DNA of 60,034 nt from Bacilli bacterium (GCA_016935815.1 JAFGQH010000057.1:1-60034), one strand, 5' to 3'. Counted from the first letter of the stretch, positions 10,705-55,765 are shown. A program made the numbers and translations. Notes: generated by a model not told the origin, from the letters alone.

Positions 10705-10730
10705 AAACCCAGAATCAATCTGGGTTTTTT
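10705..10730. terminator. Bidirectional Rho-independent terminator
   Basis: AAACCCAGA / TCTGGGTTT stem with A- and T-runs, between convergent genes. Confidence 0.85.
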
Positions 10731-12019
10731 GTTTGGATTTTTCCGTAGCAATAGGTTCCGTCAAAGGATGTCAAAACGACATCTACCAGAGTTCCAATCA
10801 AGTCTTTTTCTGCTTCGATTCGAACCAAGATATAATCTCTTGTATGGCCCTGAAGATAGCCGTCTTTGACTTGTTCCGGGATGACCTGGTGTGGTCTTCC
10901 TAGTTGACTCTTGATATGTGTATCTTTTAGCTTTTCACTCATTCGAAGCAGTCGATTGACCCGTTCCTTCTTTACATCACCGGGAATTTGGTTTTTCATG
11001 CGACTCGCCACAGTCCCTTCTCTTTTCGAGAATGGAAAGACGTGAAGTTCTTGGAAATTAACCGTTTCAATCACCTTCAGCTGTTCTTGAAAATCGGCTT
11101 CTGTTTCGCTTGGGAAGCCGACGATGATGTCTGTCGTGATAGCCAAATTCGGTATTCTGTCTTTCAAGATATTGATGGTTTTGATGTATTCCTCTGAGGT
11201 ATATTTCCGGTTCATCAATTTCAAGATTCGATCACTGCCACTTTGCAATGGAATGTGCAAGTGATTGACGATCTTTTTGGAAGTGGAAATGACGTCGATC
11301 ACTTCATCGTCCAACTCTGAGATTTCGATCGAGGAGATCCGAATTCGTTTCAATCCTTCCACTGTTTCCAGATCTCTTAATAAATCTGCGAAACTATAGT
11401 TCTGCAAATCCTGACCGTAACCACCGGTATGGATTCCTGTCAAGACGATTTCAACGTGACCGGAATCTACGAGTTGTCTTGCTTCTTGGAGGACTCTGTT
11501 CTTCGCTTTGGAGCGAATTCTTCCACGACTATACGGGATGATGCAATAGAAGCAGAAATTGTTACAGCCGTCTTGGATTTTTAAGAATGCACGTTGATGA
11601 TTCTTGAAATCGCTAATGAAGAGATTGTCATACGTTTCTCTATTCTCTAAAATTTCAACTTTATTCAACGGGATTCGTTCGTTCAGATATTCATCGAGAT
11701 ATTGCAGGATGCGATCTCGGTTCTTGGTTCCAAGAACGATTTTGACACCCTCGATGGAAAGAATTTCTTCCGCTTTCATTTGAGACAAACAACCCATCAC
11801 GAGGATGATTGCATCGGGATTATGTTGAAGCGGTCTTCTGATATATTTTTTGGATTTGCGTTCTCCAGTGTTTGTGACCATGCAGGAATTGATGATATAG
11901 ACATCGCTGTAGGAATCGAAATCAACGATTTCATAACCGTTGTCTTGGAATAATTCCTGAATTGCTTCCGTCTCATAGGAATTGACTTTGCAGCCAAGTG
12001 TGTAAAAGGCGACTTTCAT
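10715..12019 (-). CDS. mtaB: tRNA (N6-threonylcarbamoyladenosine(37)-C2)-methylthiotransferase MtaB
   Basis: TLGCKVNSYETEAI; CNNFCFYCIIPYSRGRIRS radical SAM motif; C-terminal TRAM. Confidence 0.93.
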   Translation of the reverse strand: MKVAFYTLGCKVNSYETEAIQELFQDNGYEIVDFDSYSDVYIINSCMVTNTGERKSKKYIRRPLQHNPDAIILVMGCLSQMKAEEILSIEGVKIVLGTKNRDRILQYLDEYLNERIPLNKVEILENRETYDNLFISDFKNHQRAFLKIQDGCNNFCFYCIIPYSRGRIRSKAKNRVLQEARQLVDSGHVEIVLTGIHTGGYGQDLQNYSFADLLRDLETVEGLKRIRISSIEISELDDEVIDVISTSKKIVNHLHIPLQSGSDRILKLMNRKYTSEEYIKTINILKDRIPNLAITTDIIVGFPSETEADFQEQLKVIETVNFQELHVFPFSKREGTVASRMKNQIPGDVKKERVNRLLRMSEKLKDTHIKSQLGRPHQVIPEQVKDGYLQGHTRDYILVRIEAEKDLIGTLVDVVLTSFDGTYCYGKIQTKNPD

Positions 12020-12778
12020 CTAATTCCCCCAGACATGGCGAAATACCGACATCACATAGATAGCTGCGGTTTCACTTCTCAAAATGGTATTTCCTAAAGT
12101 TACGATGGTTCCTCTGGTCTGTAGAAACTGAATTTCCGAAGGTGAGAACCCACCTTCCGGACCAATCAATACCAACGTGTTCTTGGTCTTTGGCAAGTTT
12201 TCCATTGCTGCTTTCAAGGTCTGCGACTCTTCTCTTGCATAGGCAATGAAGATCGTATCATAATCCTGATATGGTAATGTTTCGATGTTGCAGATGTCAT
12301 GAATGATTGGCATTCTGTTTCGTTCGGATTGTTCTGATGCTTCTTTGACGATGGTTTCATATCTTGTCTTCTTTTTCGCAAAATCATCGATTTTCACAAT
12401 CGAATGGTTTGTAGAAAGCGGAATGATTCCTTTCGCACCGAGTTCTGTCGTCTTTTGCAAGACGAGTTCGAAAGCATCTTTCTTGATCAATGCTTGGGCA
12501 ATCGTCAGGTTCAATGTATTGTCCAAGACGATTTGTTCGTTTCCTAGGGTCAATATGACATCTTTCTTTGTGAATTCTTTGATTTTGGCTTCGTAGGTCT
12601 TACCTGAATATGAGACGACAATCAAGGCATCCCCTGGTTTCAGACGCATGACGTTTTTGATATGATGAGCATCCTGATCCGTAATGATTGCCAGGTTATT
12701 ATGGATTTGCTGGTCTTGAATAAAGTATCGTTGCATAATATCACCATTAAAATAATACCATATTTTTCCAATAAGCAC
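12020..12778 (-). CDS. rsmE: 16S rRNA (uracil(1498)-N(3))-methyltransferase RsmE
   Basis: ALIKKDAFELVLQKTTELGAKGIIPL; LIGPEGGFSPSEI; TLGNTILRSETAA. Real start probably at internal MQRYFIQD. Confidence 0.94.
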   Translation of the reverse strand: MLIGKIWYYFNGDIMQRYFIQDQQIHNNLAIITDQDAHHIKNVMRLKPGDALIVVSYSGKTYEAKIKEFTKKDVILTLGNEQIVLDNTLNLTIAQALIKKDAFELVLQKTTELGAKGIIPLSTNHSIVKIDDFAKKKTRYETIVKEASEQSERNRMPIIHDICNIETLPYQDYDTIFIAYAREESQTLKAAMENLPKTKNTLVLIGPEGGFSPSEIQFLQTRGTIVTLGNTILRSETAAIYVMSVFRHVWGN

Positions 12779-12811
12779 AGCGATTTTATACGGAACTTTT
12801 GTTGGATGAAA

Positions 12812-12840
12812 AAAAGCGTCGGTGGGATTCCGACGCTTTT
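12812..12840. terminator. Rho-independent terminator closing the jetC operon
   Basis: AAAAGCGTCGG / CCGACGCTTTT 11-bp stem with flanking A/T runs. Confidence 0.85.
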
Positions 12841-12844
12841 GGGT

Positions 12845-15800
12845 TTAGTGCATTTGTTTGATGGCTTCATACGCTCTGGCGTTGCGACCATCTCTTAGGG
12901 TAACGATTGTCGTATCCGTGAATTTGGACAGGACTTCCATCTTTTGAGGTGGGGTTGCCAGAATGATCTGAACCGGTAATTCTTGAATGAACTTCATCAT
13001 CGCCTTGATTCTCGATGTGTCCATCTTGTCGAACACCTCATCAAAGATGATCAAACCGATGGCATCATGAAGATGTCCGCCTTTGGCTTGTTCGAACAAA
13101 CGAACGAAGGATGCCAAGGTTGCGACATAGAATGGTACCTGGGTCTCCCCACCGGATTTCTCCTTGAAGACTTTCGAGTACAATACTCGGTCGCCTTGGA
13201 TGTTGGTGATGAGGATATCATAATCCATATAAGTACGATAATCGGTAAATTTGTTCACGATACCAGGAGTGTTGATATCGTCTGATGCGAGATTCACAAA
13301 CAGTTCTTCCAACTGTCTTTGATACTTCATTTCGAAATCATAGTTCAGCATCTCGGTTCCGGCTTTGATCGCTTCATCGGATAAGACCATGTCATAGTAT
13401 TCCCCGTATTCTTTGGATTTCGGGAAGATGAATTCATAGCGGTCATCTCCGAAGTGGATGTGCTGCAAGGTCTCGTTGATACGGCTGATTTCATCTTGAG
13501 CGGAAACGATATAATCCCGAAGTTTGGCGATGAAGTCTTCTTTGAACAGTTTTTCGGCAGACTCTCTTGCCTCACGAACTTTCGCTTCGTATTTGACGAG
13601 TTCGGATTTTACCAGTTTGTTGTATTCGTCCATGTATTCATGGATGTATTCCAATCCGAATTGATATGACAGGTTGTACTTGGAGACATACTTGATCTGT
13701 TTGCTCTTGAGGGAATCCTCGAGGCTATTGATCGATTCAAGCTCCATCGCAACACGATTTTGGTATTCTTCCAAGATATTGTTGATGTTGCTGGATTTCG
13801 AAATCTCGAGTTCATAGAGATCTCTTGCCTGTTTTTCGATCGTGAGATTCTCGGTAGATACTATCTCAATCTTGTTTTGTAGCTTCTTGATGGTCTTTTC
13901 ATGTTCCAAAATCGCTTCGTGGAATTTGATTTCATCGGAGTTGAGTTTTCCGTTGCGCTCATATGCCTTTTGACGGTTGACCTCATATCCTCTGATCTCC
14001 TCACGAATATTTTCGTATTCAAGTCGAAGTTCAGACAAGTCTTCTTGCTTCAGTTGGTCCTTGCGTTTCAACAAGTCTTTCTTCTTGTCTTTCCAAGCAT
14101 TTAGATCGATGAAGGATTCGAACATTTCCAGTGTACCGCTGATATCGATGGTACGGATATCACCGATTTCATCATTGATTTTTTGAATGTCATCTTGAAC
14201 TTTGGTGAAGCGCTTTTTCGTTTCTGCTGCTTTCGCACGCCATTTTTCCAATTGCTTTTCTTGCGCTTTACGACCGATGAACGGTTTCTCTTGGTTTTTG
14301 TTTAAAGAACGTACAGTATAGCTGCGATATACCATTCCGCTTTGAGTGATTGCTTGTGGATGGTTTTCGAGTTGATTTGCTTGTTCTACCATCATTAGAT
14401 TTCCACATACCATGTTGATGTAATGTCTTGCATCAACATTGTCAGAACTGATGATCGAAGCCAATGAATTCTCTCTGAAACTTTTGAAATGCTGGATCTT
14501 TTTGGTGTTGACCAAACCGATTCCATAAATATTCATGGAGTCTTTGATTTCATTGTAAACATCCAAAGCTGCATCAAAGTAACGCGGTTCAACGATTAGG
14601 TTGAAGCGTTGGAAGCCTAGATAATCTTCAATAGTGTCTTGCCACTCTGGATCGCTGATTTCCAATAATTCACAAAGGATATGAACATTGATATCGACGT
14701 CGTAGCGATTCTTAACGCCTTGAATGATGCTGGATTGAAGACGTTTGATCATCGGATTATAACGAAGATTGTGGTTTTCCAAATCCTTCAGCGTTACCAG
14801 AATCTCATTGATTTCAGTGATAAGGTCGTTCTTGATGTGGGTTTGTTTTCCAAGCTCTTCTTTGTTTTCATCGAGTATGGTTTCCAAGTCTTTTCCGACT
14901 TGTTTTAGCTTGAGTTTGTTTTCGTCGAAATTGGTTTCATCGATCTTCGACCATTCGATCTTCGCTAATTCACGATAAACCGGCCGTTTGTAATCGTTTT
15001 TGAGTTCTTCTACGATTGTCTTTGTCTTGCGAAGGCGTTTCAATGCATACTGACGAATTTCAGTTCCATCATTGATTTTCTTCTCGAGGTCGGAGAGTTC
15101 TTTTTCGTAGATTCTGGCCATCTTGAAGGTATCGTTGGAGGACATCATGGAATAGATTTCTTTGCTGCGCTCATCCAAGATCGACAACTGGGTATTGATA
15201 TCTTCAATCAGTTTTTTGTTTTGTTCTTTTTCGATAGCGACTCTTTCCTGTTTGACATTGAGTTTGTCGATGTCTTTCTTCAGGGTTTCAATCTCCAGCA
15301 TTTTCATGAAGAATTCGTAGAATGCCTTTTGGTCTTGATTGTTTTGGATATCTTCATAAATCAATTTGATATCGTTGAGATCCTGGACTTTCTTGCGAAT
15401 CACTTTCAGGGTTGCTTCCAAATCACGATAGGCATTGATCGATTCTTTGATGGATTCGACGTCTAAGATTTTTTCTTCCAACAAATAACGATAGATGAAA
15501 TCTTTGACATCGGGAATCGGTTTGAATGCTAAGGCTTTTGGAATCAAGGAGAAATAAGTTTCGTTGATGGATCCAAACAGAGATCGGAATGCGAGTTTTG
15601 CTTCTCTTCTTGTCAGATACACCTTTGTCGCTTGTTTGGTTTTCTTGAATCCGGATGTGGTTAATATCTTGCCTTCTTCATCCACGAAGAAACTATCTTT
15701 CATCTGACCAGAAAAATGATAGAAGATCACCTTTGGAGGTAGGATTTCACCGAATACATCGATGACTGTTCCGACGGTAAAGTATTCATCCTTGCTTTCA

Positions 15801-16090
15801 TCGTAGAATTCCAAGCTGACATGCCCTGTGGTATCGGAATCTCTCAAGTATTCTTGATTGTCGATACCGAGTTTACATTTGACATAACCACGCAGATCAC
15901 GCTTGCTCTTTTCATTGGCAGCCAAGTTGAAGATTTGATCTCCGGCTGTAATCACAAAGGCCACGGCGTCGATGATTGTGGATTTACCGGTTGCATTTTG
16001 TCCGGTTACCAACATGTTGTTTTTTACATGAATTGTCTCATTGGCAAAGAAATGCCAATTGATAAGACGTATTTTAGTCAGTTTCTTCAT
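12845..16090 (-). CDS. Wadjet/MksB-type SMC ATPase, JetC-like
   Basis: Walker A GQNATGKST, signature KSGGETQVPFYVA, Walker B IGLIIFDEVFDKMD; long coiled coils between; start trimmed to ATG at 16090 (MKKLTKIRLINWHFF). Confidence 0.88.
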   Translation of the reverse strand: MKKLTKIRLINWHFFANETIHVKNNMLVTGQNATGKSTIIDAVAFVITAGDQIFNLAANEKSKRDLRGYVKCKLGIDNQEYLRDSDTTGHVSLEFYDESKDEYFTVGTVIDVFGEILPPKVIFYHFSGQMKDSFFVDEEGKILTTSGFKKTKQATKVYLTRREAKLAFRSLFGSINETYFSLIPKALAFKPIPDVKDFIYRYLLEEKILDVESIKESINAYRDLEATLKVIRKKVQDLNDIKLIYEDIQNNQDQKAFYEFFMKMLEIETLKKDIDKLNVKQERVAIEKEQNKKLIEDINTQLSILDERSKEIYSMMSSNDTFKMARIYEKELSDLEKKINDGTEIRQYALKRLRKTKTIVEELKNDYKRPVYRELAKIEWSKIDETNFDENKLKLKQVGKDLETILDENKEELGKQTHIKNDLITEINEILVTLKDLENHNLRYNPMIKRLQSSIIQGVKNRYDVDINVHILCELLEISDPEWQDTIEDYLGFQRFNLIVEPRYFDAALDVYNEIKDSMNIYGIGLVNTKKIQHFKSFRENSLASIISSDNVDARHYINMVCGNLMMVEQANQLENHPQAITQSGMVYRSYTVRSLNKNQEKPFIGRKAQEKQLEKWRAKAAETKKRFTKVQDDIQKINDEIGDIRTIDISGTLEMFESFIDLNAWKDKKKDLLKRKDQLKQEDLSELRLEYENIREEIRGYEVNRQKAYERNGKLNSDEIKFHEAILEHEKTIKKLQNKIEIVSTENLTIEKQARDLYELEISKSSNINNILEEYQNRVAMELESINSLEDSLKSKQIKYVSKYNLSYQFGLEYIHEYMDEYNKLVKSELVKYEAKVREARESAEKLFKEDFIAKLRDYIVSAQDEISRINETLQHIHFGDDRYEFIFPKSKEYGEYYDMVLSDEAIKAGTEMLNYDFEMKYQRQLEELFVNLASDDINTPGIVNKFTDYRTYMDYDILITNIQGDRVLYSKVFKEKSGGETQVPFYVATLASFVRLFEQAKGGHLHDAIGLIIFDEVFDKMDTSRIKAMMKFIQELPVQIILATPPQKMEVLSKFTDTTIVTLRDGRNARAYEAIKQMH

Positions 16091-16679
16091 CGGTTTCACC
16101 TCCTGGTTTGACTTCGATTCTAGAAATGAGATCATAAACATCGTTGATGGCTGTGGTATTGATTGCCATCAATATCGTTGGGAAAATGATGATGGATGAC
16201 CCGGATTTTGTGATATCGCCTACTGGTTCGATGATATTGAACTTTTTATACAGGCGAAGGATCGTCACAAGATCGGTTTTGTTGATTTTCTTCTTGAGTT
16301 CCAAAGAATCGTAGTATTGATGCAATTCATCGATTCGGACAACAATGTTGTCGTTGACGGATGTATCGGCTAGATGTTGATGGTAAAGAATTCTCAAGAT
16401 GAGCAAAATGATGGTTTCATCCTTTTTCAATTTCATCAGATTCGAATTCTCTTTATGCGTCAGCTGGACGGCTCCGTTCTCACGATCCAAGAGAATCTCG
16501 TAATCGATGATTTCGAAGTATTCGTCGAAGTATTTTTTGTGACTCAACAGGAAATAGTACATCTCCTTGTTGTCTTTTTTGTCTCTAGCCAAGAATCCTG
16601 TTGACAGCAATCGCAAACAAGTTCTTGAAAAGAGATTTTTTTGGCTGCTGTTCAGCTCTTCAAAGTTTTCTAGTATCAT
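16074..16679 (-). CDS. Wadjet/MksE-type subunit, JetB-like (DUF4194-like)
   Basis: 201 aa; position between JetA-like and JetC-like genes with overlapping ORFs; winged-helix-like LDRENGAVQLTHKENSNLMKLKKDETIILLILRILY. Confidence 0.75.
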   Translation of the reverse strand: MILENFEELNSSQKNLFSRTCLRLLSTGFLARDKKDNKEMYYFLLSHKKYFDEYFEIIDYEILLDRENGAVQLTHKENSNLMKLKKDETIILLILRILYHQHLADTSVNDNIVVRIDELHQYYDSLELKKKINKTDLVTILRLYKKFNIIEPVGDITKSGSSIIIFPTILMAINTTAINDVYDLISRIEVKPGGETDEETD

Positions 16680-18082
16680 GCGTCATACCCCCTAATAATC
16701 TCAAAGTCAGCCAGTTTGAATTTTGTATGTTCGATGTGCGATGTGAGTGGCTGAATATAATAGTCTAATTCATCTCCTGCGTATACCAGGATGTATAGCA
16801 ATCGTAAGACCGCTTCATCCGACATATCATCACGGATGATTTCGGATGCCTTGATCTGTTTGTTCTGTTCAAAGAATTTGAGCAGATATCCATAGATGAC
16901 ATCCTCACTGTAGTTGCGTTCGAATTCTTTGTAGAATTCTTCTTGAAGCCTTATTCCTGGTCCTCCGTTGTTTTCTGCCAAGTATTGAGTATCCACACGT
17001 TTGTAGAAACCTCTTGGTGTGAACAAGGAATTGTTTCCGATTTGTGAGTAATTTGCGAATTGGAACAATGGTTCCAAATTCGTCATCGCCCGTTTCGTCT
17101 TGTGGCTTTTGACTTCGGTTGCCGTATAGCGTAGAATCTTCGATAGTTTCGAAATGACGTTTTCATCATCGGATAACAAGAATTTGATTTTGGCAATGGT
17201 CGAATTGACATAGACCTTGTTTTTTTGGTCGATTTGCTCGATGATGTAATTGATCGAATTGTAGATATCGATCATGTCATCGATTCGTTTGTTCGCTCGA
17301 ACAAGTGCCAATTGATAGTTGTTGTGTGTCTTGACTAAGAATTCTTTGGCAATGACATCCATGATATCCGGATCCTGTTGATAGCTTTCCAACGTCTTGA
17401 TGATCTCCAAACGATACTTGTTGATATTGTCGCTTGTCTTGAGTCTTCGATAGGCTTGGTCCACTAACTCGATTTTGTAATTGACCAATAGATTGATCAA
17501 ATCCTTGATTTCGGAATTGTCTACTATCGTACGAATGTAGTATTTCATTCTGGAATCCAACTTGCGGATTTCCCTGACAAATGCAGAAGTATTCTTGTAA
17601 ACCTGATCCAACACCATTCCGTATTCGCCATGATCACTCGTCAGCAATGAATAAACGGTATAAATATATCCTCTAAATTCATGACCTTCAGCTTCTTCTC
17701 CATAGATGGAATCGTTGGCGATGTCTCGCAAGGCTTCAATGATCGTGATAGCATAATCTCGAAAATTGATGATCTCGTCATAATCGTTGTTGACATCGAC
17801 ATCGATCCATTCGGATTCTTCAAATCGCCTTAGAACATAATTTGCCAAGTCCCGGTAGGTGACTTCTTCTTGTTCTTCGTCATCCGACTCGAATCGATCT
17901 GATAGTGGGTGAGCTTCCAGATAATCCATTATGACTTGTTTTGCCAGTGTCTTATCCAAACCTAGTATGGATCCTTGTTCATAGGCTTTGTAGACCTCCA
18001 TCAAACAAGCAATATAAAGTTTTTGGTTTTTGCCGGATAACAGTCCGAAGAACTGTTTCGGTATGATATTGTACATATCCAT
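16676..18082 (-). CDS. Wadjet/MksF-type kleisin-like subunit, JetA family
   Basis: NIIPKQFFGLLSGKNQKLYIACLMEVYKAY N-terminus as in JetA-family proteins; start taken as ATG 18082 with AGGAAG RBS (ORF-track start is GTG at 18091). Confidence 0.75.
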   Translation of the reverse strand: MDMYNIIPKQFFGLLSGKNQKLYIACLMEVYKAYEQGSILGLDKTLAKQVIMDYLEAHPLSDRFESDDEEQEEVTYRDLANYVLRRFEESEWIDVDVNNDYDEIINFRDYAITIIEALRDIANDSIYGEEAEGHEFRGYIYTVYSLLTSDHGEYGMVLDQVYKNTSAFVREIRKLDSRMKYYIRTIVDNSEIKDLINLLVNYKIELVDQAYRRLKTSDNINKYRLEIIKTLESYQQDPDIMDVIAKEFLVKTHNNYQLALVRANKRIDDMIDIYNSINYIIEQIDQKNKVYVNSTIAKIKFLLSDDENVISKLSKILRYTATEVKSHKTKRAMTNLEPLFQFANYSQIGNNSLFTPRGFYKRVDTQYLAENNGGPGIRLQEEFYKEFERNYSEDVIYGYLLKFFEQNKQIKASEIIRDDMSDEAVLRLLYILVYAGDELDYYIQPLTSHIEHTKFKLADFEIIRGYDA

Positions 18083-18094
18083 AATCTTCACTTC

Positions 18095-18445
18095 CTAATT
18101 CTCTCTGTTATAAACAAAATTGCCGCCGACCAGACTTGATAAGGTGTTTTCAATCATTACCCAATCCTTCCGGAACAGCTGCAATTCTTTTTTCCCAAGT
18201 GGAGTGATTTGATAATAACGTCGCTTCATGCCTTTTTTGTTCTTGCCGGTATACGATTTGATTTTATCTTCCGCCAGCAAGCGTTTCAGAGCGGTATAGA
18301 GGGTCGCTTCCGTCAATTGAATGTTTTGCTTGCTGACGGCTTCGATGATTTTGGTCATTTCATAACCATAACTATCGAACTTCGCCAGTATGGACAAGAT
18401 GATGTAGTTTGTAAATCCTCTGACATATTCGCCTGAATTCGTCAT
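18095..18445 (-). CDS. PadR family transcriptional regulator
   Basis: LSILAKFDSYGYEMTKIIEAVSKQNIQLTEATLYTALKRLLAEDKIKSYTG....RRYYQITPLGKKEL winged-helix PadR pattern. Confidence 0.9.
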   Translation of the reverse strand: MTNSGEYVRGFTNYIILSILAKFDSYGYEMTKIIEAVSKQNIQLTEATLYTALKRLLAEDKIKSYTGKNKKGMKRRYYQITPLGKKELQLFRKDWVMIENTLSSLVGGNFVYNREN

Positions 18446-18469
18446 TATCTCACCTCCTTATATAACGTG

Positions 18470-18533
18470 GTTATGCATATCGTTTTTATACATAACGTGT
18501 TTATATTATACCGCATATTCATTCCTTTGTAAA
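18470..18533 (-). promoter_or_regulatory. Sigma-A promoter and candidate PadR operator of the padR-jetABC operon
   Basis: Minus strand TTTACA (18528-18533), 17 nt, TATAAT (18505-18510); inverted repeat GTTATGCATA (18470-18479) / TATACATAAC (18487-18496). Confidence 0.75.
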
Positions 18534-18549
18534 GAGGCCAAATAAAAAA

Positions 18550-20576: not shown

Positions 20577-20600
20577 AAAAGCCAATTCGAATTGGCTTTT
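20577..20600 (-). terminator. Rho-independent terminator after dnaJ
   Basis: AAAAGCCAATTCGAATTGGCTTTT palindromic stem plus T-run on minus. Confidence 0.8.
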
Positions 20601-21733
20601 TACATTTTGAAACTATTCTTTATTTTAGACCAGAAACTCGTGTTCGTTTTGGGGGGATCTTCGACTTTTACAAGTCGTTCGAACAGCCGCTTCTGTTCTG
20701 AGTTCAATTTTGTTGGGGTGACTACGGTGACGATCACATGTTGATCGCCCTTGACTTTGCTTCTGACGTTTGGAGCTCCTTTTCCTTTGATTCTAAATTT
20801 AGAATCGGATTGGGTTCCACTCGGAATCTTCAATAAGACTTTTCCATAGACGGTTGGAACTTCGATTTCCGTACCCAAAGCAGCTTGAGCGAAAGTGATC
20901 GGGATATTGATGATGATATCATCACCCTGTCTGATAAACGTCTCGGATTCCTTGACTTCGAATACGATGTAAAGATCTCCGTTTGGTCCGCCGTTCGAAC
21001 CTTTGTTTCCAAATCCTTCCAGACGGATCTGTTGTCCAGTCTCAATTCCCTCTGGTACTTTGATTTCGATTTCCTTGGTTACGCGTTCCACGCCTTCGCC
21101 ATTGCAGTTGTGGCATTTCTTGGTAATCTCTTTTCCGGTTCCATGGCAAGTAGGACAGGTTCTTCTGGTCTGGGTTCTACCGAACAATGTTTGTGATTCC
21201 ACAACGATTGTTCCAGTCCCGTGACATTGAGAACAAGCCTTGATATCACTTTTCGATTCCGCACCAAGTCCGTGACAGACGTGGCATTCATCATAGACGG
21301 GAATCTTAGCTTTTTCTTTCTTACCAAAGATCGATTCTTCGAATGTGATTGACATGCGGCGTTGAATATCGGACCCCTTTCGAGGTCTGTTTCGTTCACT
21401 GGCTGCGGATCTGGATCCACCGCCAAAGAAAGCACTGAAGATATCGCCAAAATCGAAATCTCCCTGACCAAAGCCGCCAAAACCTCCGGCGCCTCCGAAT
21501 CCAGCGGTTCCATCAAAAGCTTGATGTCCGAATTGATCGTATTGTGCCCGTTTTGTTTTGTCGCTTAGAATGTCATATGCTTCTTGAACTTCTTTAAATT
21601 TTGCTTCCGCATCGGGTTCCGTGGAGACGTCGGGATGGTATTTCTTCGCCAACGTTCGATAGGATTTTTTGATTTCATCCTCACCGGCTCCTTTGGAAAC
21701 GCCTAACACTTCATAGTAATCTCTTTTTGCCAT
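20600..21733 (-). CDS. dnaJ: molecular chaperone DnaJ
   Basis: J-domain with HPD; four CxxCxGxG-type zinc repeats. Confidence 0.98.
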   Translation of the reverse strand: MAKRDYYEVLGVSKGAGEDEIKKSYRTLAKKYHPDVSTEPDAEAKFKEVQEAYDILSDKTKRAQYDQFGHQAFDGTAGFGGAGGFGGFGQGDFDFGDIFSAFFGGGSRSAASERNRPRKGSDIQRRMSITFEESIFGKKEKAKIPVYDECHVCHGLGAESKSDIKACSQCHGTGTIVVESQTLFGRTQTRRTCPTCHGTGKEITKKCHNCNGEGVERVTKEIEIKVPEGIETGQQIRLEGFGNKGSNGGPNGDLYIVFEVKESETFIRQGDDIIINIPITFAQAALGTEIEVPTVYGKVLLKIPSGTQSDSKFRIKGKGAPNVRSKVKGDQHVIVTVVTPTKLNSEQKRLFERLVKVEDPPKTNTSFWSKIKNSFKM

Positions 21734-21788
21734 AGTCGTTCACCCCTAGATAAAGTTGAATTGCAGTCGCCTGCAATTCAACCAAGTC

Positions 21789-23624
<1,836 letters not shown>

Positions 23625-23634
23625 TCATCCTTTC

Positions 23635-24300
23635 TTACTCGTTGGTTTCATTGTTTTTGGATTGATTTTCTAATTCTTCTTGCGTTGCTTCGGAGATGGT
23701 TTCCTCCGGTTTTATATTGATAATGACCATACTAGGTCTCAATATTCTGTCTTTGAACATATAGCCTTTCTTCTGAACGCGAAGGACGGTATGTTCTGGT
23801 TTTTCGGGATCGTATTCTTTGTCGACTGCTTCTTGTTTGGTCGGATCAAATACATCTCCGATTTTGGTTTCAATCAAGGAAACACCTTCGTCCTTCAAAG
23901 AGTTGAAGATCATTTCATCGATCATTTTGAATCCGTATAAGAAATTCTTCAGATTCGGATCGTTGGTTTCCATATTGAGCGCTTGATTAAAGATTTCCAA
24001 AGAGTCGATCAATTTGTTTGCCAGAGAGTATCCCGCGTATTTGCGTTCTCTCAAGAGATCATCATTGACTCGCTTCTTGTAGTTCTCCATTTCCGCTAAT
24101 TTACGGAAATATTTCTCTTTTAATTCTGTGAGTTCTTCCTGGATTTCCAGCAACAACTCGTCAGAAGTCGGTTTCTTCTTTTTCTTGGATTTCTTTTCTT
24201 TGGATTCTTTTGTTTCTTCTACGGTTTCGTCTTCGATGGTTATTTCCGGCGCCTCGATTGTTGGTTCGGCGCCAACCTTCTTATCTTTTTCTTCACCCAT
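23635..24300 (-). CDS. grpE: nucleotide exchange factor GrpE
   Basis: Coiled coil; FRKLAEMENYKKR; VLRVQKKGYMFKDRILRPSMV. Confidence 0.95.
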   Translation of the reverse strand: MGEEKDKKVGAEPTIEAPEITIEDETVEETKESKEKKSKKKKKPTSDELLLEIQEELTELKEKYFRKLAEMENYKKRVNDDLLRERKYAGYSLANKLIDSLEIFNQALNMETNDPNLKNFLYGFKMIDEMIFNSLKDEGVSLIETKIGDVFDPTKQEAVDKEYDPEKPEHTVLRVQKKGYMFKDRILRPSMVIINIKPEETISEATQEELENQSKNNETNE

Positions 24301-24306
24301 TGTGGT

Positions 24307-25341
24307 TTACTCCTCTTCTTCGTACAATTTGGCGATATGTTTCGCGATATATTTGATGAGCGGAATCACGCGACGATAATCCATTCTTGTCGGACCGACA
24401 AGGGAAATCGTGCCTTTTTCTCCATCGTGAGTATCGTAGCTCGAAGAGATCACTGTGCAATCGTTCATTGCGGTAATCTTATTCTCGCTACCGATTTTGA
24501 CGGAGATGCCATCCGCATCTTGATCGACAATCTTAAAGATTTCGTTATTTTCGATGGTCGAGATGAATTCTCTCAATTTTTGAATATCATTGAATTCCGG
24601 TTGATACAGCATGTTGCTGGAACCAGTCAGATAGTAATGTGATTGCGCGAACTTCGAGAACGCTTCGATGAAGGAATCGACGATGGTTTCGCGATACTTC
24701 AGAAGTTCCTTGATTCGGCTGTGTTGAATCTCGTAATGAAGTTTTTCGGATACTTTGGAGATTGGTGTGTCCACTAGCATCTCGTTTAAGAGATCGATTA
24801 CTTTCACAAGTTCGGATTGATCCATATCCTCGGATAATGTGATCTGTTTGGATTCCACATGTCCGAAATTGGTAATCACGATAATCAGTGCTTGATGCTG
24901 CGAGATTGGAACCAACTGAATCTTCTTGACTTTCGAATGATACGCATTCGGTCCCAAAGAGATTGCAGTGCAGTTTGTCGCTTCACTGAGCAGGTTGATT
25001 GCTTCGTGAATGATTTCGTCACGATCTAATGCGCGATCAAAGATCTGATCGAATTCGAAGTAACCATCGGTTTCTTCATCGAGATTCTTGACAATCGTTT
25101 CTATATAGTATCGATAGCCCATTTCCGAAGGTACTCGACCGGATGAAGTATGGGTTTTTTCTATGAATCCGAGATCTTCCAAGACACCCATTTCATTACG
25201 GATGGTCGCAGAGGATACGTCTAATACTTCTGCCAAAACCTTGGAACCGATAGGTTCCGCTGATTTCACGTATTCGTCAACAATCATTTTTAGAATCATT
25301 TCTTGTCTTTTCGTCACTGAAATCACTCCCTTAGCACTCAT
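24307..25341 (-). CDS. hrcA: heat-inducible transcription repressor HrcA
   Basis: RQEMILKMIVDEYVKSAEPIGSKVL; SSATIRNEMGVLEDLGFIEKTHTSSGRVPSEMGYRYY. Confidence 0.97.
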   Translation of the reverse strand: MSAKGVISVTKRQEMILKMIVDEYVKSAEPIGSKVLAEVLDVSSATIRNEMGVLEDLGFIEKTHTSSGRVPSEMGYRYYIETIVKNLDEETDGYFEFDQIFDRALDRDEIIHEAINLLSEATNCTAISLGPNAYHSKVKKIQLVPISQHQALIIVITNFGHVESKQITLSEDMDQSELVKVIDLLNEMLVDTPISKVSEKLHYEIQHSRIKELLKYRETIVDSFIEAFSKFAQSHYYLTGSSNMLYQPEFNDIQKLREFISTIENNEIFKIVDQDADGISVKIGSENKITAMNDCTVISSSYDTHDGEKGTISLVGPTRMDYRRVIPLIKYIAKHIAKLYEEEE

Positions 25342-54305: not shown

Positions 54306-55448
54306 TTAAGCTCGTTTGATGATCGCCACCATCGGAATCAACAGGAATGCGATCCAACTATAAACCCAAGCTCCGGGAACAAAGAACCCCAGAAGGAAGA
54401 ATATCATTGTGGAAATGAACGGCATCAAGGCAATCAATCTGCCCTGCTTCGGAGCGTGCTCCAAAATCGAATACATCGGAACAAACAAGAAGACTAACCA
54501 CAACCATGCCCAAGTGGTGTGGAAGATGACTCCCGCACCAACGTATACAATGATCGTAGTTAGGAATACCAGCCACTCATTCTTGTTTCGTGCGTTGATA
54601 ACCAAGAACGAATCTTCACTGAAAATCAATGAAATGCCTATTGGAATCAAGAAAGCGAATAATCCATACCCCCATTCGTGCATGACATACCCAGTATACA
54701 GGTATACGCCTATGGCAATTAAAAATCCGAGTTCGAAAACGATCAGTTTCCAAAGTTTTCTCTCATGCAGCACACCAATCATCGGTATGATCATGAAAAC
54801 TAGCCAAGTCGGATTCCAAGTCCCGGTGAAATACCAGACCAAAATGAATGCGATCACAACGACAAACGGACTGATTGCGGTCAAAAACGAGATGAAGCGC
54901 ATCGTTTTAACACTGGAGAAAATCGCCAAGATTGGGACCAATAAGAAGATTAACCAAGCAGGATGCCATAATCCCCAACCAAAGCCGAGGACCATAAAGA
55001 TGATCAAAGCCACAAACGGACTCAGTGCGATGAATCCATCCATTGAATTCTTGTCAAATGCATTGACAACGATTGCGGTCATCGGAATCGACAAAAAGAC
55101 AAGCCAACCAGGATGCCAAACGCCCCAACCAAAGCCGAGAATCATAAAGACGATCACGGAGATGAACGGCATCAATGCGGTAATGCGATTATCACGATTC
55201 GTCGCTGAAGATTTCCCACCGCGATGGATATAGATATATTCTTCTCCTTCGACAAATTCTTCGGATAGGCTTTTCACTACCTCTTCCGGTGTTCCCACCA
55301 TTTTGAGAATTTTCTCTTCGGACATGTTCTTGGACATAGCATCTTCAATCATTTCTCCATAGTCAGCCAAGATATCCGCTACCTCATCCTCAGTGATATT
55401 ATATTGTTGTAACAATTCTTTTAATTCTTCGAGATAACGCTCTTTCAT
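54306..55448 (-). CDS. HAAS/DUF1700-like N-terminal domain fused to repeated two-TM units
   Basis: MKERYLEELKELLQQYNITEDEVADILADYGEMIEDAMSKNMSEEKILKMVGTPEEV; repeated HPGWLVFLSIPM / HPAWLIFLLVPI / NPTWLVFMIIPM units. Confidence 0.75.
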   Translation of the reverse strand: MKERYLEELKELLQQYNITEDEVADILADYGEMIEDAMSKNMSEEKILKMVGTPEEVVKSLSEEFVEGEEYIYIHRGGKSSATNRDNRITALMPFISVIVFMILGFGWGVWHPGWLVFLSIPMTAIVVNAFDKNSMDGFIALSPFVALIIFMVLGFGWGLWHPAWLIFLLVPILAIFSSVKTMRFISFLTAISPFVVVIAFILVWYFTGTWNPTWLVFMIIPMIGVLHERKLWKLIVFELGFLIAIGVYLYTGYVMHEWGYGLFAFLIPIGISLIFSEDSFLVINARNKNEWLVFLTTIIVYVGAGVIFHTTWAWLWLVFLFVPMYSILEHAPKQGRLIALMPFISTMIFFLLGFFVPGAWVYSWIAFLLIPMVAIIKRA

Positions 55449-55765
55449 TTTGTTTCATCCCCTTCCAAAATCCGAAATACACCTTTGATAAACAATTTCC
55501 ATTCCGACAGGTATTCTGTCAGTTTTTCTAGTCCCGTGTCTGTAATCTTATAGAACTTCTTCGGTGCCCCGATCACCGAAGGAACCTTGTAGGTTTCAAA
55601 ATAGTCCTGTTGCGTCAGACGTCTGAGCAAAGGATAGATGGTATTTTCATTGACCGGAATCTCACGACTCAAACGATCAATGACATCGAAACCACAAAGG
55701 TCTTCATGTTCCATGATTTTCAAAACACAGATCTCAATAATTCCCTTTTTGAACTGTGTGTTCAT
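55445..55765 (-). CDS. PadR family transcriptional regulator
   Basis: EICVLKIMEHEDLCGFDVIDRLSREIPVNENTIYPLLRRLTQQDYFETYKV...KFYKITDTGLEKL. Confidence 0.92.
   Translation of the reverse strand: MNTQFKKGIIEICVLKIMEHEDLCGFDVIDRLSREIPVNENTIYPLLRRLTQQDYFETYKVPSVIGAPKKFYKITDTGLEKLTEYLSEWKLFIKGVFRILEGDETK

Follow-up and report, generated by a model that had tools for sequence, protein, structure and literature searches.

What does a Wadjet-type motor do in a bacterium that has no Wadjet nuclease? In a full Wadjet, finishing a small DNA circle triggers the nuclease JetD (PMC10586767). The question is raised by a 60,034-nucleotide stretch of DNA from a wall-less Bacilli bacterium (GCA_016935815.1 JAFGQH010000057.1:1-60034; hereafter the window, meaning the whole stretch that was analysed), in which four minus-strand genes at 12845-18445, padR-jetA-jetB-jetC, form one transcription unit encoding a regulator and a structural maintenance of chromosomes (SMC) complex, JetABC. 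An earlier note on this DNA, made from the sequence alone, had described a PadR-controlled SMC operon of Wadjet/MksBEF type without JetD and had left its role open. Our analysis indicates that JetABC is probably the motor of a type I Wadjet minus JetD, maintained by vertical inheritance as a resident SMC complex where Smc-ScpAB is missing from the lineage. The genes of the operon, with protein lengths in amino acids (aa), are as follows:

18095..18445, minus strand: padR, PadR-family winged-helix regulator, 116 aa (Pfam PadR, 1.8e-17)
16676..18091, minus strand: jetA, kleisin subunit, 471 aa from GTG or 469 aa from the ATG at 18085
16074..16679, minus strand: jetB, KITE subunit, 201 aa
12845..16090, minus strand: jetC, SMC ATPase, 1081 aa

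The genes are tightly packed: 3 nt separate padR from jetA, jetA and jetB overlap by 4 nt, and jetB and jetC overlap by 17 nt if jetC is read from its 1081 aa start (an alternative in-frame ATG upstream gives 1098 aa). The operon as the earlier note had drawn it, with these genes, sizes and overlaps, a hairpin terminator past jetC and then rsmE, was reproduced in full.

By profile comparison, the subunits belong to type I Wadjet (JetABC1) and not to MksBEF, SbcC or RecN. JetC matched the PADLOC JetC1 profile (PDLC00519) at 967 bits (4.4e-291); JetA matched PF18982 (1.7e-70) and PADLOC JetA1 (348 bits, 1.5e-104), and JetB matched DUF4194 (5.4e-26) and PADLOC JetB1 (195 bits, 2.4e-58). We therefore retain from the earlier description a padR-led, Wadjet-type SMC operon without JetD and drop the MksBEF type: the JetC2 profile gave JetC 27 bits and the MksE profile, at 22.6 bits, did not reach its cut-off of 27, so that neither the SMC subunit (MksB/MukB/JetC2) nor the KITE subunit (MksE/MukE) of MksBEF/MukBEF was recovered. 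An SbcC/Rad50/RecN identity, the assignment that would have undone the earlier call of the 1081 aa protein as JetC, was ruled out by the dominant JetC1 profile together with the kleisin and KITE partners. The SbcC/Rad50 and Smc profiles fell far behind JetC1, with NCBIfam Rad50 at 13.7 bits. The JetC profile also aligned over its full length with solved Wadjet JetC chains, and the ATPase motifs are intact (Walker A TGQNATGKST, signature EKSGGETQ, Walker B LIIFDEVFDKMD), their residues being near-invariant across 110 relatives. For JetA, a profile search against PDB sequences returned no match and fold comparison alone gave one: with an AlphaFold model (mean predicted local distance difference test, pLDDT, 72; predicted template modelling score, pTM, 0.64), the top nine Foldseek matches were Wadjet JetA, including that of E. 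coli, and MukF chains. Whole-chain TM-scores were low, probably owing to flexibly placed domains in the model.

The nuclease is missing well beyond the operon. No JetD (PF09983) was found by profile search in the window's own genome, an assembly only about 80% complete, nor in any of the 90 genomes that we sampled from the order Izemoplasmatales, including the complete genome of Hujiaoplasma nucleasis zrk29. This sample comprised the window's own family (f1, n=34), which is a Hujiaoplasmataceae-like family of the order, its sister family Izemoplasmataceae (f2, n=49) and a third family (f3, n=7). The same model detects JetD in 30 of the 395 Bacilli genomes of our class-wide survey, so its absence from the order is not a blind spot of the model. 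A JetD profile from relatives found none adjoining any f1 operon, and no conserved nuclease gene adjoined jetABC in the loci compared. The earlier claim that no JetD lies near the operon is borne out, and a JetD elsewhere in the genome, which would have told against that reading, was not found there or across the order. The accompanying idea of an effector supplied in trans goes unsupported on two grounds, the missing nuclease neighbour and the order-wide absence of JetD. The 'IFDR' motif of JetB, a reported JetD contact in Wadjet (PMC10586767), was tried as a marker of JetD coupling and proved uninformative, being missing also from the JetB of JetD-bearing Bacilli.

What remains of the system behaves like a core gene set. 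Nearly all f1 loci on long-enough contigs keep the order grpE-dnaK-dnaJ-(variable)-padR-jetABC-(variable)-rsmE-mtaB, with rsmE and mtaB lying 3' of jetC in 20 of the 21 loci compared, and in f3 grpE-dnaK-dnaJ stands directly upstream of jetABC (L136-L138). This shared location on the dnaJ side suggests that jetABC reached both families from their shared ancestor. Distances between JetC proteins follow those between DnaK proteins closely (r 0.95 over 21 loci, a value reached in 0 of 2000 permutations), and also those between MtaB proteins when f1 is taken alone (r 0.80). Since synonymous sites were saturated in most genes, the ratio of non-synonymous to synonymous substitution was dropped and relative amino-acid identity was used instead; identity to the nearest congener was 90% for JetA, 94% for JetB and 89% for JetC, with 93% for DnaJ, 81% for MtaB and 60% for RsmE. 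JetABC is thus as slow to diverge as DnaJ. All three genes are full-length and conserved over 11 genera. None of the seven neighbours tested was a PADLOC defence gene, and searches of phage and plasmid records for JetA gave three weak, partial matches in each. By these sequence comparisons jetABC belongs to the core genome of families without Smc-ScpAB and has been passed on vertically, and JetA in its present form is not a gene of mobile elements. As a separate observation, jetA of one f1 genome (G006, L135) contains internal stops (3 TGA, 2 TAA) in an otherwise intact operon, which is either an assembly error or a pseudogene.

Within the order, JetA is present in 30 of 34 f1 genomes and all seven f3 genomes and in none of the 49 from f2; counting JetA or JetC brings f1 to 32 of 34, JetC adding two. 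ScpA was found in none of the 90 genomes, with control profiles positive, and Smc exceeded its cut-off (TIGR02168) in G076 only. We did not accept that smc (G076:C29, L031) as genuine to the order, as the genes of its contig look foreign, and took it as a probable contaminant. Cultured strains fall on both sides of the divide: H. nucleasis zrk29 (CGMCC 1.17882, G005; 1,808,583 bp, PMC10470597) carries JetABC but no Smc or JetD, and Xianfuyuplasma coldseepsis zrk13 (CP048914, G079, in f2; 1,958,905 bp, PMC8397711) lacks JetABC, Smc and JetD alike. Two candidates for a JetC-like protein in f2 were rejected, a 1082-aa match being an extracellular solute-binding protein or lipoprotein and a 1075-aa match resembling SbcC, and a broad JetC profile found no match in that family. 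A look for an empty jetABC site in f2 covered the first 780 kb of one complete genome, which held neither dnaJ nor rsmE.

The same pattern extended over the 395 genomes of the class. JetA without ScpA occurred in 102 genomes, 8 of which have JetD anywhere; both proteins occurred in 13, 11 of them with JetD; 168 had ScpA only and 112 had neither. The negative association between JetA and ScpA gave Fisher p 3e-20, computed over genomes that are not independent, and Smc was absent from all 78 of the JetA-positive, ScpA-negative genomes outside the order, 77 of which are at least 90% complete. JetD-less JetABC was present in 9 of the 13 ScpA-lacking families (f1, f3, f5, f9, f12, f20, f22, f24 and f25), and among ScpA-bearing families f10 was the only clear case (1 of 12), f15 having one unclear, long-branch copy. 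A culturable member of the Acholeplasmataceae, Haploplasma modicum (L300), is among the carriers of jetABC. Some f9 and f22 genomes carry JetABCD as a separate, distant and differently placed copy beside the resident JetABC. In f10, a complete second JetABCD copy often lies elsewhere in the same genome, and this family looks like an intermediate state.

Two further observations concern single families. In f12, a strongly reduced genome of 0.8 Mb (G346, L167; genus g144) has jetA with no detectable jetB or jetC, and its congeners have lost the operon. In 8 of the 9 f22 loci (L172:4712-5041 and 7 others), the gene immediately 3' of jetC, in the same orientation, is a SepF-like cell-division gene (Pfam SepF 2.6e-9 in the one protein scanned), which hints that JetABC and division may be linked.

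Loss of the nuclease did not happen only once. In the JetC tree, JetD-less copies formed several family-wide clades: f1, f3 and f22 together; f12; f9 with f20, with f24 and f25 nearby; f5; and the second copies of f10. A single clade for all nuclease-free JetC copies of Smc-less genomes was rejected by the approximately unbiased (AU) test (p-AU 2.6e-5), as was each pairing of the three main JetD-less clades (p below 1e-5). On these topologies, therefore, nuclease-free JetABC lineages arose independently, at least three times within the class.

Together, these data favour a role on the chromosome. The distribution suggests that JetABC probably serves as a chromosome organiser, or condensin; and we lean, by a modest degree, towards the broader proposal that in several wall-less or related Bacilli lineages without Smc-ScpAB a plasmid-defence motor of type I Wadjet lost its nuclease and became the sole SMC-kleisin organiser of the chromosome, with f10, f9 and f22 as intermediates. 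By analogy with characterised Wadjets acting on plasmids, JetABC dimers would be loaded onto the chromosome and use ATP hydrolysis to drive loop extrusion. Completing a circle would be inconsequential without JetD, leaving the complex harmless to circles, and the same motor could fold the chromosome and help to segregate it, which is what MukBEF does in enterobacteria and what has been proposed for MksBEF. The nuclease-free complex of the earlier note is upheld, and for the different role that it had left open, a chromosomal, condensin-like function now leads, on account of the core-gene status of jetABC in families lacking Smc-ScpAB.

Several observations weigh against this reading. The strongest is that ScpA and JetC are both missing from f2, f7 and f18 (for example G079, G093 and G115), f2 lacking Smc as well. 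The same two proteins are missing from parts of f9, f12 and f16, so that an SMC complex of either kind is not indispensable in this group. In f10, JetD-less JetABC occurs alongside ScpA (L186, L190-L193 and L203), and loss of JetD therefore does not require loss of Smc. JetC was not detected in two f1 genomes, G013 and G020, which are 86% and 92% complete. ParB (TIGR00180) is present in nearly all f1 genomes and in none of the seven from f3 (G083-G089), and for this reason a shared loading mechanism cannot be assumed. Moreover, the condensin role is one that we infer from distribution. Some of these points would suit a complex that is chromosomal and auxiliary, acting in repair, replication termination or division-linked clearance of DNA: sister families survive with neither complex, JetABC and ScpA coexist in f10, and SepF adjoins jetC in f22. 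We nevertheless regard an auxiliary role as unlikely, though a genuine rival, since retention of JetABC almost only in genomes without Smc and ScpA, across several independent lineages, suggests that a general SMC vacancy was filled.

JetABC might instead still be a defence system, acting on plasmids or phages either with a nuclease supplied in trans or without cleavage, by sequestering or silencing them or by interfering with segregation. Profiles assign its proteins to type I Wadjet, JetABC is the circle sensor of characterised systems (PMC10586767), and a PadR-controlled operon could be induced by invading DNA. Near-universal presence in the family, a fixed location and housekeeping-like conservation are, however, atypical of defence genes; moreover, the operon adjoins neither a conserved nuclease gene nor, among the neighbours tested, a PADLOC match, and the genomes of f9 and f22 that carry a complete JetABCD have it in addition to JetABC. 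We therefore consider a continuing defence role distinctly improbable. That the operon is a decaying Wadjet remnant on its way out, having lost JetD, is very hard to sustain: the missing nuclease and the interrupted jetA of G006 are what such a remnant would predict, but it is contradicted by three full-length genes whose ATPase motifs are intact and whose amino-acid sequences are strongly conserved over 11 genera, with synonymous sites saturated. A resident, chromosomal JetABC accordingly remains the interpretation that we favour.

The control of the operon and its surroundings in the window comprise the following features:

18505..18533, minus strand: promoter of padR-jetABC, with -35 TTTACA at 18533, a 17-nt spacer and -10 TATAAT ending at 18505
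18458..18505, minus strand: three 15-bp direct repeats, candidate PadR operator, with palindromic core TTATGCATAA / TTATGTATAA, between the -10 and the padR ribosome-binding site
12809..12840, minus strand: intrinsic terminator 3' of jetC, AAAAGCGTCGG...CCGACGCTTTTTTT, a strong hairpin and T run
10715..12778, minus strand: rsmE and mtaB, conserved downstream neighbours, context outside the complex
20600..25341, minus strand: dnaJ, dnaK, grpE and hrcA, conserved upstream heat-shock cluster, context that marks where jetABC lay ancestrally

The promoter-like site has 11 of 12 consensus matches in a consensus scan, and its -10 TATAATATAA is retained in most f1 relatives. The repeat array has a period of 15 and 2.9 copies (Tandem Repeats Finder); each of the 16 upstream regions tested from f1 gave 15 as its best period, some relatives having longer arrays. 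The likeliest arrangement, judging from sequence, is that PadR, which we infer to bind these repeats, represses its own operon through them and so sets the dose of JetABC; in f1, PadR would probably occupy the array, which overlaps the transcription start. A padR gene 5' of jetA is present in f1 and absent from f3 and the other families. PadR thus appears to be local control and not a part of the machine, since no padR stands beside jetABC elsewhere; the PadR-led, nuclease-free operon of the earlier note is real here, with PadR confined to f1 and nuclease-free JetABC much wider. The window holds a second PadR-family regulator at 54306-55765 with an adjoining polytopic membrane protein, resembling the common pairing of PadR with a DUF1700-type protein.

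At the 3' end, folding gave -23 kcal/mol over a 96-nt stretch (z -4.3) for the terminator, which was missing from the output of a simple consensus scan; rsmE (12020-12778) is the next gene. The polytopic membrane protein that the earlier note had placed upstream of the operon is likewise real, and a relative occurs at the same position in one congener only, which puts it outside the system.

Chromosomal action is so far undocumented for any JetABCD-type complex (PMC10586767), and in the open-access literature, with subscription papers and preprints outside the search, we found no report of JetABC as the resident SMC of these bacteria. Annotation pipelines would miscount such nuclease-free operons as plasmid defence. 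With cultured members on both sides, zrk29 with JetABC and zrk13 without, the question of how an immune motor could turn into a condensin is directly testable.

Among known systems, the closest is type I Wadjet (JetABCD of E. coli GF4-3, P. aeruginosa PA14 and B. cereus Q1), with which the operon shares the order jetA-jetB-jetC and its type I family matches. Unlike those systems, it lacks JetD in the genome and the order, occupies a stable core location, is led by PadR and belongs to a lineage without Smc-ScpAB; Smc-ScpAB itself, as TIGR02168 Smc with ScpA, was not recovered as a system of the order. MksBEF of Pseudomonas aeruginosa is also a nuclease-free SMC complex of Jet/Mks type and acts on the chromosome, as the distribution suggests for JetABC, but the SMC families differ, and here JetABC is the only SMC-kleisin complex found in the Smc-less families. 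MukBEF, which according to a 2023 review replaced Smc-ScpAB in an ancestor (PMC10586767), is likewise a nuclease-free kleisin, KITE and SMC complex of enterobacteria and their relatives that stands in for Smc-ScpAB; in contrast, JetABC is of the type I Jet family, has an SMC of about 1080 aa rather than the 1482 aa of MukB, arose separately in Bacilli and has no known MatP-type partner. MukBEF and MksBEF have been proposed to descend from plasmid-defence SMC complexes through nuclease loss (PMC10586767), a proposal that rests on old, single events. In the Bacilli studied here, a defence motor would have turned into a housekeeping one at least three times independently, and relatives with JetD as well as apparent intermediates are still present in the class.

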